From: an uncultured Aquimarina sp.
GTDB lineage: Bacteria > Bacteroidota > Bacteroidia > Flavobacteriales > Flavobacteriaceae
Assembly: GCF_947495315.1 (NCBI RefSeq)
Contig: NZ_CANLYD010000004.1
Span: 1 to 64,000, forward strand
Direction of reading: 5' to 3'
Length of the DNA: 64,000 nt
In this document: positions 3,801 through 35,844 of the stretch, piece after piece
Numbering within the stretch: position 1 is the first letter of the stretch
Layout: the number at the start of each line of letters is the position of its first letter
The notes under the pieces: generated by a model
Told to the model about the DNA's origin: nothing
The model's input: only the letters and a program-made list of their open reading frames with translations
Databases searched by the model: none
Position numbers and translations under genes: made by a program

Positions 3801-4538
3801 AAATTCTGCTTTGGCAAACTCATAGCGCGTTCCCTGGGTATCAGTAATGATCCAATTGGTGATCTGATCCCCTAACAGGGTATAATCAATTTTGACTTCT
3901 GGATTATCAATACAAAAAATTTGATATTTTCCATTTTCAGTTACATCATAGTTAATTCCAATGGTTCCCGATAGTCCGTTAATAGAAAAACTAAAGGTAT
4001 CTGCCTGGATATCGATATTGTTCATACTATAATTAGTTAATAAAGCATCTGCAGCATTCATAGCCTCTACGGTAGAAAAAGTGCCCATATATGCATTATT
4101 GTAGGCAGCATCAAGACCTGCCCGAGTGCCAGGATCAGTAATTTTAGCATAAGTCCCATCTGCTTGATCAGGAAGTCCATGTACCTTACGAGAAACTACC
4201 CCGCCATAGTTCAGGTTCCATCCCAAACCAACCTTAGTAGCTAATTGATTTACCTTGATCCCAGAAGCATAGTAGGTCATGGATATGGGGAGTGAAATAC
4301 TTTTTCCCGAAATCTCACAAATTGGAATCGAAATATTAGGAGTACCTGTATATTGATTCAATGGAACATTTCCATATTTAATAAAAGCTGCTGCTTCCGG
4401 AGAGTTAGGAATGGAGATATTCCTGGATAATTCTGCTGTATAGTCAAATGCAGTGTTCCCACCACTGTCATCACCAGATTGTGCATATCCCAAATTCGTG
4501 ATTAAAAAGAGTGTGAGAAATAATGAAATATTTTTCAT
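852..4538 (-). CDS. Large exported RHS-like (YD-repeat) protein
   Basis: 1228 aa with signal peptide MKNISLFLTLFLITNLGYAQ. The N-terminal ~550 residues have the 'ISIPICEISGKSISLPISMTYY' signature seen in Bacteroidota RHS-associated proteins, i.e. an SpvB/TcaB-like beta-rich shell. A Cys-rich insert lies near residues 565-665 (paired Cys in CETRPCPDLGLQPNGCS). The C-terminus has YD repeats: 'YTYDPMIGVTSITDPKGYT' and 'YYQYDGFNRFVKVKDQDGN'. There is no clear toxin domain; it stops right after the last YD repeat, and the next gene (start 844) probably supplies the DUF6443/RHS partner. Expected in the envelope or outside the cell. It lies inside the element bounded by the tRNA fragment at 7793. 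Confidence 0.8.
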   Translation of the reverse strand: MKNISLFLTLFLITNLGYAQSGDDSGGNTAFDYTAELSRNISIPNSPEAAAFIKYGNVPLNQYTGTPNISIPICEISGKSISLPISMTYYASGIKVNQLATKVGLGWNLNYGGVVSRKVHGLPDQADGTYAKITDPGTRAGLDAAYNNAYMGTFSTVEAMNAADALLTNYSMNNIDIQADTFSFSINGLSGTIGINYDVTENGKYQIFCIDNPEVKIDYTLLGDQITNWIITDTQGTRYEFAKAEFTHTSYSTQQNEYTAEYISSWYVTKIETADKEDTIVYYYGNGAYYAENQRLPLDHIVQFYQNVNSSVFTQEIVEQHKQTIYKIKQFNPTAIFHNGKLAVDFGSSLQREDLLGQSAITSVNSYNILGQPIKSFEFDYSYFVSESGSGIYPAGDKRLKLDAIREIEVFRDNGTVNTSPTTPKEKTHSFDYFNPTQLPHISSHYMDLWGYYNGGGAHITNVVGNLFLFNQQYGLSRLDYDFPGSDRTSKPEFAINGTLQKITYPTGGSTEFFFNGHSGPLEEQTNTNLQRYTTAVQGGSDNPIASTNDLDDCPNVDDVSYLNNLQNIANGEFTIDALNANKAIAFDATFNNYDPGNPLANNGVTFVCVYKSRIGTGQCETRPCPDLGLQPNGCSLSVPGDTYTICDTGEAPLTYCDIMSSNPASNPKIVYFSTTPDSDFILQLEEGDYRILLVNGNANTALNVQYDLLVEQEISRNNMIGGLRLVKTEDKPSENATDVLTKYYYYNTLPENGVITPSIIEGNYASSGVVHQKLFFSDVEIHNGLVRDGVNVPDVNLYKFYSNNLAPKAKYNIAYTNVSEIRFKGDQYQGHTVYSFYNQDDGVAVANRPYFPRYHLNGRLRTTTHYNDQRKMVQQSSQSYSQQTLSTTMPHNGVFMIPEAVAHQACKKKIYGNGTYTISVSLADPVVGGCFGGGELGPYTKYFANKYRLTPVWTRLESKTEKQFFEDQIIEQKIEYFYDNDTHKQMTRTQTTKNNGEIGISKMYYPQDRAALGTLPLNANKAIDVMIDTYRIGMPLQVEQYTKQGTENILLAKQRTDYKLWGSEKHVSPEYIHTSKGNAALEPRMRYHQYDTQGNPLEISQTNGASSIYIWGYDDRYPVAKIENASYSQIASHVATIKSQSNLDNDNTIGYAGAEGTLREKLDQLRDAVPNALITSYTYDPMIGVTSITDPKGYTMYYQYDGFNRFVKVKDQDGNILSENEYNYKDN

Positions 4539-32494: not shown

Positions 32495-33268
32495 TTATAT
32501 TTCGTTTTTTTCTATCAAGTATTTCCAATAGCGCTTGGGAAGATGCTGTAGATGCAGTTTTGAGTTTTTTCTGGATTTAATATTAACGCTGTTAAAATAA
32601 GTTTGCCATAGCTTCTGAAAATCTAACTCGTTATCAGCGTAGTTTTCCTTTTGAACACTTGTGTTTAGTTTTGAAAAAAAATCTAAGGTTATTATGTCTA
32701 CTTTATCAAGATCATAATATAATCCATAGGATCGCTTGATATCATAGATTAACCATTTTTGGTCTGCATATCGATCTTTGAAGTGATATATCAACAATGG
32801 TAAAACATTAAAGTCGGGCTCTATAGTTGAAACAAAAATATCATCTTTTGTTCGTTGGAATCGAACGAAAGCCTCCATCCTATGTTTTTCTCTTCCAACC
32901 ATTTTAGCTACTTGACTGATTTTAAGGATATCTTTATTGCTGTAGTCAATAAGAGTAGCATTAGGTGTGTCGAAAATATTCTTAATATAGCATAGAAGCG
33001 TATTTTCTACTCCTTTAATTTCGCTTAGAAAAGCTTTGAAAAGAATTTTCTGTTGCGAGGATGGTATTTTAGTTTTTATACCCTTCCATACCCGATTAGA
33101 TTTTGTTTCATCAGTAATAATTGTTTCAGAAATTGTAAATAGCTGATTATTGGATTCAGATTCTTTTCTAATAATGGGAGTACCTATTTTTTGCTCATAT
33201 ACAGTAAATACACAGGTTAAGAATCCATCAAAACTTCCGTCATATAATAAAATAGTTTGTGGATTCAT
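32495..33268 (-). CDS. TIGR03915-family putative DNA repair protein (DUF4130)
   Basis: 257 aa. It begins 'TILLYDGSFDGFLTCVFTVYE', the family's N-terminal signature, and has 'HRMEAFVRFQRTKDDIFVSTIEPDFNVLPLL', 'FKDRYADQKWLIYDIKRSYGLYYD' and 'LPKRYWKYLIEKN'. Family knowledge: it is always paired with the radical SAM protein TIGR03916 and sometimes fused to a uracil-DNA-glycosylase-like domain. Here the pair is 11 bp apart. It is the third gene of the operon facing the LexA-like repressor. Confidence 0.92.
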   Translation of the reverse strand: MNPQTILLYDGSFDGFLTCVFTVYEQKIGTPIIRKESESNNQLFTISETIITDETKSNRVWKGIKTKIPSSQQKILFKAFLSEIKGVENTLLCYIKNIFDTPNATLIDYSNKDILKISQVAKMVGREKHRMEAFVRFQRTKDDIFVSTIEPDFNVLPLLIYHFKDRYADQKWLIYDIKRSYGLYYDLDKVDIITLDFFSKLNTSVQKENYADNELDFQKLWQTYFNSVNIKSRKNSKLHLQHLPKRYWKYLIEKNEI

Positions 33269-33279
33269 GTCTGGATTTG

Positions 33280-34539
33280 CTAGAAAAGACTCAATTGATT
33301 AGTAAAATACTTAGTGTGTTTACTTTTGGAAGTTTTTAGAATGATATTCTTTAGCGTATATGGAGTTATATCTTTGTGGTAAAAGTCTTTAGAGTTACAT
33401 ATAATGAAATGTTGTGCTCTGTTTAATGCGATACCAATTGCTTTGAGATGTGTCCAATCTAATTTTCTGAATTTTCTTGCCTGTAGTATTTTTGAAACTG
33501 ATTGCATCCCAATTCCAGGTATTCTAGCTAAAATGTTTTTGTCCGCTTTGTTAATGTCAACTGGGAAAAAATCCAAATTACGTAATGCCCAGCTTAACTT
33601 GGGGTCAATATCAAGTGCTAAGTTTTTATATTGGTCATTTAATAATTCGCTTACAGAAAATCCGTAAAATCTTAATAACCAATCAGTTTGATATAATCTG
33701 TTTTCTCGAAGAATAGGCACTTCGGTTTGTAAAGAAGGTAAACGATTATCAGTCGTAACCGGAACATAACCAGAGTAATATACCCTTCGCATATTAAATT
33801 TTTTGTAATAGTAGGTGGCAGAATACATAATGTCCTTATCGCTTTCTCCCGTAGCACCAATAATCATTTGAGTGCTTTGTCCTGCGGGAGCATACCTAGG
33901 TGTGCTTTTTATGATTTTTCGTTCTGCTTTATACTGAAGGATTTCGTTTTTTACCTTTTGCATTGGTTTTATAAAATCCTCGTGTTTTTTATCAGGTGCT
34001 AAAAGTTTAAGTCCCGATATAGTAGGTATTTCTATATTAACACTAAGACGATCCGCATACAATCCAGCTTCTCTCATGAGTTCATCACTGGTCCCTGGAA
34101 TCGATTTTAAATGAATATATCCGTTAAAATTCTCTTCTAACCGAAGTTTTTTGGCAACTGCAACCAATCGTTCCATAGTATAATCAGAATTTTTAAAAAT
34201 TCCTGAACTAAGAAACAATCCTTCTATGTAATTTCTACGATAAAAATTAATGGTGAGATCTACAACCTCTTGTATTTTAAAGGCTGCTCTTTTTATATCG
34301 TTACTTTTTCTTGTAACACAGTACGCACAGTCAAAAATACAATGATTGGTGAGCAAAATTTTTAATAGAGATACACAACGACCATCTTCGGTATAACTAT
34401 GACATATGCCCATGCCTGTGTTATTACCTATGCCTTTATTGGTGTTTTCTCTTTTTCCTCCACTACTAGCACAGGATACATCATACTTGGCGGCATCCGC
34501 AAGAATCGAAAGCTTTTCACGCATTCTCTCAAACGACAT
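33280..34539 (-). CDS. Putative DNA modification/repair radical SAM protein (TIGR03916)
   Basis: 419 aa. The radical SAM cluster motif CVTRKSNDIKRA is preceded by CHSYTEDGRCVSLLKILLTNHCIFDCAYC, i.e. CxxxCxxC as CIFDCAYC (~70-80). The C-terminal helix-hairpin-helix (ILARIPGIGMQSVSKILQARKF, ~330-352) binds DNA. The start overlaps the DUF559 gene by 11 bp, and the TIGR03915 partner follows. Predicted to process damaged or modified DNA. Operon control by the palindromic operators at 34934-35000 would make it damage-inducible (inference). Confidence 0.93.
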   Translation of the reverse strand: MSFERMREKLSILADAAKYDVSCASSGGKRENTNKGIGNNTGMGICHSYTEDGRCVSLLKILLTNHCIFDCAYCVTRKSNDIKRAAFKIQEVVDLTINFYRRNYIEGLFLSSGIFKNSDYTMERLVAVAKKLRLEENFNGYIHLKSIPGTSDELMREAGLYADRLSVNIEIPTISGLKLLAPDKKHEDFIKPMQKVKNEILQYKAERKIIKSTPRYAPAGQSTQMIIGATGESDKDIMYSATYYYKKFNMRRVYYSGYVPVTTDNRLPSLQTEVPILRENRLYQTDWLLRFYGFSVSELLNDQYKNLALDIDPKLSWALRNLDFFPVDINKADKNILARIPGIGMQSVSKILQARKFRKLDWTHLKAIGIALNRAQHFIICNSKDFYHKDITPYTLKNIILKTSKSKHTKYFTNQLSLF

Positions 34540-34909
34540 ACCTGCTTCTATTGGATAGCTTAATTTGATGTTTTAAAGCTCTGAAAATTTCTTCTATATC
34601 TACCAGAATTTGATAATCTGTAAAACGTAATACTGTTATCCCTAAGGAATGAATGTGTAGTTTTTTCGGAGTATCTTGACTATAAACTTCGGAGAATTCG
34701 TGTGCGTATCCATCAATCTCCAGAGCAATTTTTAATGAAGGACAGTAAAAATCAAAAGTGTAGTTGTGAATCTTATGGTTTCTTTTAAAGAGAAATCCTT
34801 TTTCGATTAACCGTTTGTAAAGTTCCTCTGTAGCAGGAATTGAATTGTTTAATGAATATCGAATAGTTTTTTCTGATTCTGGTCGGTGTAAAACAATTTG
34901 TGATGTCAT
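34529..34909 (-). CDS. DUF559 (Vsr-like) endonuclease domain protein
   Basis: 126 aa. The PD-(D/E)XK-like fold of DUF559: 'FKRNHKIHNYTFDFYCPSLKIALEIDGYAHEF' (D, E-x-D core) and 'KKLHIHSLGITVLRFTDYQI'. Relatives include very-short-patch-repair nucleases; many stand-alone copies are uncharacterised. It is the first gene of the repair operon, translationally coupled to the radical SAM gene, and its promoter overlaps the operators. Role in repair inferred from context. Confidence 0.88.
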   Translation of the reverse strand: MTSQIVLHRPESEKTIRYSLNNSIPATEELYKRLIEKGFLFKRNHKIHNYTFDFYCPSLKIALEIDGYAHEFSEVYSQDTPKKLHIHSLGITVLRFTDYQILVDIEEIFRALKHQIKLSNRSRYVV

Positions 34910-34933
34910 ATGGATTTAGTTAACTAGTAATTT

Positions 34934-35000
34934 TTCCAAATTTATGGAAATATTCCAACAAAATAAAAATGAAACTGTGTTAAAATTGGAAATATTCCAA
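34934..35000. promoter_or_regulatory. Two palindromic operators between the repair operon and the LexA-like repressor
   Basis: TTGGAAATATTCCAA at 34986-35000 and TGGAAATATTCCA at 34945-34957, dyad centres 42 bp apart (four helical turns). A third half-overlapping dyad, TTCCA-n6-TGGAA, starts at 34934. The first covers the -33 TTG (34986-34988) of the plus-strand promoter; the second adjoins the minus-strand -7 box TAAATTTG (34944-34937). The layout suits coordinated autorepression and operon repression. Confidence 0.75.
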
Positions 35001-35015
35001 AAAAGAGTATATTTG
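34986..35015 (+). promoter_or_regulatory. Promoter of the LexA-like repressor: TTG-N19-TATATTTG
   Basis: -33 TTG at 34986-34988, then exactly 19 bp to TATATTTG at 35008-35015: the complete flavobacterial consensus. The right operator overlaps the -33 element. Confidence 0.7.
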
Positions 35016-35076
35016 TTACATAATTATCCCAAATCAGAGTAACAGAAATGTATACTAATTTATAAATCAGAGTTGT

Positions 35077-35844
35077 ATGGATAATTTAACTAACCAAACC
35101 ATTCAACGCTTTAAATCGATCCGTGAGGAAAATCATTTTACACAATCTGATTTTGCCAGAGTTCTGAATATTAAGAATTCTACTGCGGATATAGAAAGAG
35201 GGAAAACGAAAATTTCGGGAAAAGTCGTTTCTAAATTACTTCAGGAATTTGGAGTAAATCCTCTTTGGTTGTTTGGCGAGAGTGAGCAAAAGAGAATCCA
35301 GTTGCATAATGGTGATGTAGCACCAAAAATAGTTACTGTAGATTCAGAAAATAATGAGAATATAGTTCTTGTTAATGTAAAAGCAGCAGCTGGTTATCCG
35401 CATAACGTTCAGGATGTGGATTGGTATCAGCAACTACCTGCTTTTGATATTCCTCTTCCGGAATATAGAAATGCTACGTATAGAGGTTTTCAGGTAGAAG
35501 GTGATAGCATGTTACCTGTTTTAGAGCCCAAAGAATGGGTTATAGGTAGAGCGGTAAATAATCTTTCTGAGTTAAGAAGTAATGCGCTTTATGTAGTTGT
35601 ATTGCAGGATAGTGTAGTGGTGAAAAAAGTGAGGAAAAATGAGGATTCTTCTGTGTTGACATTAATTTCACTAAATACTGACTATTTGCCATATACCATT
35701 CAAACACATCAGGTTGTAGAGGTTTGGGAGGTGAATAGCAAGCTTAGTTTCAATATTGATGCGAATTCTGATGCAGCAAGTATTAAGCAGTTGCAAGATG
35801 CGATGTTAACGCTTACTTCGGAAGTTAGAAGTTTGAAAAATTAA
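35077..35844 (+). CDS. XRE-HTH / S24 peptidase (LexA/CI-like) repressor
   Basis: 255 aa. HTH_3 ~7-62 (FKSIREENHFTQSDFARVLN, IKNSTADIERGKTKISGKVV). The S24/LexA domain at ~100-225 has the Ala-Gly scissile site in 'NVKAAAGYPHN', catalytic Ser in 'VEGDSMLPVLEP' and Lys in 'DSVVVKKV'. A short helical tail follows. Such proteins self-cleave on RecA* and derepress their targets. It faces the DUF559/radical SAM/TIGR03915 operon across twin operators, so a small DNA-damage regulon is likely. It is called LexA-like because Bacteroidota vary in true LexA. Confidence 0.9.
   Translation: MDNLTNQTIQRFKSIREENHFTQSDFARVLNIKNSTADIERGKTKISGKVVSKLLQEFGVNPLWLFGESEQKRIQLHNGDVAPKIVTVDSENNENIVLVNVKAAAGYPHNVQDVDWYQQLPAFDIPLPEYRNATYRGFQVEGDSMLPVLEPKEWVIGRAVNNLSELRSNALYVVVLQDSVVVKKVRKNEDSSVLTLISLNTDYLPYTIQTHQVVEVWEVNSKLSFNIDANSDAASIKQLQDAMLTLTSEVRSLKN

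Follow-up and report, generated by a model that had tools for sequence, protein, structure and literature searches.

S24-family repressors with a CI-like N-terminus drive the SOS response in Bacteroidetes (PMC8565304). One group of these repressors, found mainly in Flavobacteriaceae, has GGA-N5-TCC as its target, and its member from Salegentibacter agarivorans (WP_075324850.1) bound this motif in gel shifts (PMC8565304). Mitomycin C induced the predicted SOS genes, recA excepted. The stated targets are the repressor gene, SplB, dinB together with a gene for polymerase III alpha, and a repair operon of two genes, COG1573-COG4277 (PMC8565304).

The window analyzed here is a stretch of 64,000 nucleotides from an uncultured Aquimarina sp., and it contains a locus of this type. 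The locus is best explained as the autoregulated lexA locus of the Aquimarina SOS response, with a DUF559 operon, dinB-dnaE and an SplB-type gene under the same control; the probability of this reading is put at roughly 0.86. The operator sites, their spacing and conservation, the homology and catalytic residues of the repressor and the other promoters that carry sites are established here, and they support a LexA-like repressor whose two operators would serve both the repressor gene and a divergent repair operon. The locus would then be a clean and conserved example of a Bacteroidetes SOS switch. The type of system has already been published, and the additions specific to the genus look new: the window has a fixed 42 bp operator pair and DUF559 as the first divergent gene, unlike the published group, and neither Aquimarina nor DUF559 appears in the main text of PMC8565304. 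No title among the literature matches listed concerns this locus.

The repressor gene is at positions 35077–35844 on the plus strand and encodes a predicted 255 amino acid S24-family protein. Domain assignments and alignment show an HTH_3 domain (PF01381, 36.3 bits) and a Peptidase_S24 domain (PF00717, 38.7 bits), both above the Pfam cut-off. The winged-helix domain of canonical LexA has the accession PF01726 (PMC8565304); it is not among the Pfam families of the repressor at E ≤ 0.001, where HTH_3 and HTH_19 are found. The protein is like canonical LexA in its S24 peptidase domain and cleavage residues, but unlike it in having an N-terminal HTH_3 of the phage-repressor type. A preliminary description of the window, made from the sequence alone, had proposed that a LexA-like repressor keeps its Ala-Gly, Ser and Lys, and this is borne out by the alignment, in which Ala105, Gly106, Ser144, Lys183 and Lys184 are invariant in 13 of 13 sequences. 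The repressor is single-copy in the genome (E ≤ 0.001). It is 99–96% identical to the nearest named Aquimarina records among the matches listed and 62% identical to the protein of S. agarivorans DSM 23515 (locus L163). By sequence comparison it is the orthologue of the non-canonical, GGA-N5-TCC binding LexA of Flavobacteriaceae. Features in common with the S. agarivorans LexA are the CI-like HTH_3 and S24 domains, the Ala-Gly and Ser-Lys residues and GGA-N5-TCC sites at its own promoter, and dinB-dnaE and SplB-type targets are shared with the group (PMC8565304). The LexA-like assignment is backed by homology to a protein tested with gel shifts and mitomycin C, by the retained sites, and by other promoters with paired sites.

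Transcribed divergently, on the minus strand, is a tightly packed operon of three genes. The first encodes a 126 aa DUF559 protein (34529–34909; PF04480, 54.4 bits, cut-off 20.6), the second a 419 aa TIGR03916 radical SAM protein (33280–34539; 662 bits, cut-off 343.5) and the third a 257 aa putative DNA repair protein of the TIGR03915/DUF4130 type (32495–33268; 279.5 bits, cut-off 112.25). The TIGR03916 and TIGR03915 genes are adjacent and both curated models are exceeded. We take COG4277 to be the TIGR03916 family, and hence the COG1573-COG4277 operon to be the radical SAM/TIGR03915 pair. The likeness to that uracil-DNA glycosylase (UDG) base-excision operon lies in the name of TIGR03916, rSAM_link_UDG. 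However, Pfam finds a UDG domain neither in the TIGR03915 protein of the window (DUF4130 only) nor in the radical SAM protein (Radical_SAM and an HHH_3 below cut-off), and the window has the extra DUF559 gene ahead of the pair. DUF4130 is described as a predicted mutagenesis-related enzyme that is linked with SplB-like radical SAM proteins and UDGs (PMC3765255). For the poorly understood TIGR03916/TIGR03915 pair, the present reading offers a testable and probably damage-inducible operon.

The control region, positions 34910–35076, is the gap between the two divergent transcription units. It displays two palindromes, operator A, ATGGAAATATTCCAA, at 34944–34958 and operator B, TTGGAAATATTCCAA, at 34986–35000. 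Both are perfect GGA-N5-TCC sites in the own promoter of the repressor, both spell GGA-AATAT-TCC, and they are 42 bp apart from start to start. Operator B is a perfect TTGGAAN3TTCCAA. The repressor gene is preceded by the promoter TTG-N19-TATATTTG (34986–35015, plus strand), whose -33 element overlaps operator B and takes its TTG from it; this is a promoter type of Bacteroidetes. Operator A adjoins the DUF559 operon's -7 box, TAAATTTG, at 34937–34944 on the minus strand (read from 34944 to 34937). The preliminary description had reported the palindrome pair and the position of each palindrome with respect to a promoter; the observation is confirmed on all three counts and that description is accurate. 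The 42 bp pair may have been derived from a triple array, which in other genera has spacings of 18–19 and 22–23 bp. The numbers fit, and a middle site is not seen between A and B in the window.

Single occurrences of the motif are unimpressive and hardly exceed controls. When up to three mismatches are allowed, 81 places match in the window where 69.9 are expected, and 10 of 100 shuffles attain 81. Genome-wide, TGGAAN3TTCCA occurs 17 times and its reversed control 14 times; the 15-mer, with one mismatch at most, occurs 50 times and its control 44 times. The promoter pattern alone is attained in 21 of 100 shuffles. Counting of single motifs is therefore weak, and pairing, position and conservation were used instead. 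Pairing and conservation exceed chance. In 46 genomes of the genus, a search with a gap of 3–33 gave 77 exact pairs and none of the reversed pattern. An exact pair is present in 35 of the 46 genomes; the 11 that have none include 7 of the 41 good-quality genomes.

Conservation was analyzed in 37 related loci (L118–L153 and L156), taken from the best 80 matches of a contig scan; 35 are labeled Aquimarina, one is a Bacteroidia MAG and one Flavobacteriaceae bacterium RhTr2. Sites A and B are found in all 37, with a spacing of 42 bp in 34, 41 bp in two and 40 bp in one. The repressor promoter pattern TTG-N17-23-TAnnTTTG is retained in 35 of the 37 and a TAnnTTTG box adjoins site A in every one. 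Compared with the window, site A averages 0.91 identity and site B 0.97, against averages of 0.74 for the spacer and 0.56 for the leader. That the palindromes are chance products of AT-rich DNA with no function, as the near-control counts of single motifs would allow, is scarcely credible in view of the 77 to 0 count of pairs and this distribution of identity.

In the proposed SOS switch, the repressor bound at site B would mask its own promoter at the -33 element, and bound at site A it would mask the -7 region of the DUF559/radical SAM/TIGR03915 operon. The 42 bp spacing is about four helical turns and may place two cooperatively binding repressors on one face of the DNA. RecA filaments on damaged DNA would bring about self-cleavage of the repressor at Ala105-Gly106, for which Ser144 and either Lys183 or Lys184 are the predicted residues. 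Both promoters would then fire, as would the paired-site promoters of dinB-dnaE and the SplB-type gene.

It may be argued that both palindromes serve autoregulation of the repressor only, and that the operon is constitutive and its position incidental. This is unlikely, although a convincing -33 TTG for the DUF559 operon is not seen at the usual distance when the region is read by eye, and two or more sites are also present at repressor promoters that lie beside another gene or beside none of these genes. The constant TAnnTTTG box next to site A speaks for a role in operon control, and regulation of the COG1573-COG4277 operon is predicted in PMC8565304. Family-wide data given below also bear on this point.

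A close repressor, defined by at least 44% identity, is present in 54 of 149 genomes of the family (one with an internal stop). Thirty-eight repressor loci were checked, 30 from the close-repressor set and eight from the TIGR03916 set. A GGA-N5-TCC core lies within 300 bp in 37 of the 38, and at least two sites are found in 35; resampled controls gave a mean of 1.8 (maximum 7) for one site and 0.05 (maximum 1) for two or more. The exception, G080, has two sites farther away, beside its radical SAM gene (L099). TIGR03916 is found in 33 of the 149 genomes, and 30 of its loci were examined. In 18 of them the repressor is part of the locus, and at least two sites are present in every case. In four genomes the TIGR03916 gene is unlinked and a close repressor is located elsewhere; paired sites precede the gene in two of these (L096, L098), which is contrary to autoregulation only, and sites are absent before it in the other two (L094, L100). 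In eight genomes that have no close repressor, none of the TIGR03916 loci has sites. Thus the sites track the repressor, with exceptions. The absence of sites from those eight genomes also argues against the suggestion that the palindromes are operators of a different, unlinked regulator, as does binding of the motif by the S. agarivorans orthologue in gel shifts (PMC8565304). Binding by the window repressor itself is a prediction, which leaves some room for such a regulator; it is nevertheless very improbable.

The preliminary description had proposed a three-gene operon, and this holds for the window; across the 37 related loci, however, it is DUF559 that is constant (present in all 37) and not the radical SAM pair. 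Within the flank covered (about 2.3 kb), no radical SAM gene is found in six loci (L124, L132, L146, L150, L152 and L153), and two others (L143 and L147) have just a fragment of it, with DUF559 and the operators kept. Repressor and operators are thus constant, as is DUF559 in these 37 loci, and the radical SAM gene is optional. In a further locus, L262, a fragment of the radical SAM gene likewise lies beside a retained DUF559 gene and operators. DUF559 was not found (E ≤ 1e-4) in 29 repressor loci of other genera (L021–L049) or in 30 radical SAM loci (L088–L117). In 10 of the 29 other-genus loci a TIGR03915-like gene adjoins the repressor and the locus contains no radical SAM gene (L026, L027, L031, L037, L038, L040, L041, L043, L044 and L046); the gene in L038 was scored as TIGR03915, with 218 bits. 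None of these ten genomes is among the 33 that bear TIGR03916. The TIGR03916/TIGR03915 pair is therefore not obligatory.

DUF559 is grouped with the Vsr-like PD-(D/E)XK nucleases, and its putative active-site residues are D53, E64, D66 and H70. In the 37 loci, position 53 is Asp in 26, Asn in 10 and His in one, whereas E64 is present in 36, D66 in 37 and H70 in 36. Nuclease activity is uncertain because of the substitutions of Asp53. VsrA of Caulobacter is a Vsr-like DUF559 protein whose gene is reported to be DNA-damage inducible (PMC12907096), and the window protein resembles it in domain and in predicted regulation. However, Caulobacter belongs to another phylum and uses another repressor, the window gene is divergent from a lexA-like gene, and the Asp53 substitutions are to be set against the comparison. 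Six more DUF559-like stretches are found in the genome (C15:79475, C11:41073, C1:359408, C11:27107, C9:183094 and C4:109980), two of them inside frames of more than 1000 residues.

All 50 places in the genome with up to one mismatch to the 15-mer were checked against mechanically predicted open reading frames. Forty are within open reading frames, one is at the 3′ end of an open reading frame (C13:9745) and nine are in promoters; of the 17 exact TGGAAN3TTCCA sites, seven are in promoters and ten within open reading frames. The nine promoter places are the window pair, a pair on C2, one member of a pair on C13, a pair on C21, and two lone sites, C14:156715 and C11:208624. The C2 pair (529109/529130) is between a PA0069-family radical SAM gene, which we take to be SplB-type, and a TIR-domain gene. 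The C13 pair (184529/184548), whose other member has two mismatches, precedes a DinB-type polymerase gene, which is followed downstream by a gene for polymerase III alpha. The C21 pair (77049/77080) has one mismatch in each site and precedes a 112-residue open reading frame, and the two single sites precede two related 105-residue open reading frames. The expectation that the motif would occur at other repair promoters, assessed at promoters with exact 13-mer sites or 15-mer sites with up to one mismatch, is thus upheld for dinB-dnaE and the SplB-type gene but fails for recA and for a second dinB, whose promoters have no site. These two promoters, the near-control single-motif counts, the site-free L094 and L100 and the 11 of 46 genomes lacking a pair are the points against the SOS-locus reading. 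An exact TGGAAN3TTCCA is also present at window positions 4362–4374, inside a 1228-residue open reading frame. It follows a coding repeat and is probably not an operator, since a similar palindrome occupies the corresponding position in related open reading frames on C8 and C9.

Of the 77 exact pairs in the genus, 75 are listed by spacing (counted by eye), with 33 at 42 bp, 15 at 31 bp, 15 at 21 bp and 12 at 19 bp, and gene context was examined for 57. The 42 bp class has the repressor and DUF559 in 16 of 16 cases and the 19 bp class has dinB in 11 of 11. In the 21 bp class an SplB-type gene is present in 12 of 15, a TIR gene in 13 of 15 and both in 10. Of the 15 cases in the 31 bp class, 14 have the 112-residue gene and one has a relative of the 105-residue open reading frame. 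Since the members of a class are in essence orthologous copies of a single promoter, the pairs represent only some four independent cases. The 21, 31 and 42 bp spacings approximate whole numbers of helical turns and so hint at cooperative binding on the same face.

The TIR-domain protein has 329 residues and is encoded opposite the PA0069-family gene (C2:529109–530178), with paired operators 21 bp apart (L005, L266, L300). Its nearest PADLOC models are PDC-S66 and, weakly, ThsB, and its AlphaFold model is poor (mean pLDDT 44.1). A profile of the protein matches the window's genome alone among the 149 sampled family genomes (E ≤ 0.001). The 112-residue protein (C21:77049–77556; L086, L299) has conserved His and Cys residues and operators 31 bp apart. 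Its profile has no match in the other 148 family genomes (E ≤ 0.001). There is no NCBIfam match at E ≤ 1, Pfam matches are weak (best E 0.1) and, for the first member, below cut-off, and the AlphaFold model (mean pLDDT 75.7) has no PDB match at E ≤ 0.001. The regulon probably also holds these two proteins, their control by the operators being a prediction, and they would extend SOS control to genes with no assigned role.

A tentative proposal, given slightly less than even odds, is that the Aquimarina repressor has gained genus-specific targets (the nuclease-like DUF559 protein, the immune-like TIR protein encoded opposite the SplB-type gene, and the conserved 112-residue protein) by way of pairs at 42, 31, 21 and 19 bp, and that it binds cooperatively in the manner of phage CI. 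DNA damage would then turn on a candidate TIR effector along with repair. Three of the four spacings are near whole helical turns and DUF559 outlasts the radical SAM gene.

The two 105-residue open reading frames (L007, L077) each have one operator approximately 35 bp upstream, and no phage relatives were found in phage records or PHROGs. In G159 a relative carries its operators as a pair (L244). In G154 the same 34 bp operator pair is found twice, 32 kb apart (C1:3065923 and C1:3098205; L273 and L274), one copy beside a TIR gene only and the other beside an SplB-type gene only. This looks like a rearrangement via the shared promoter.
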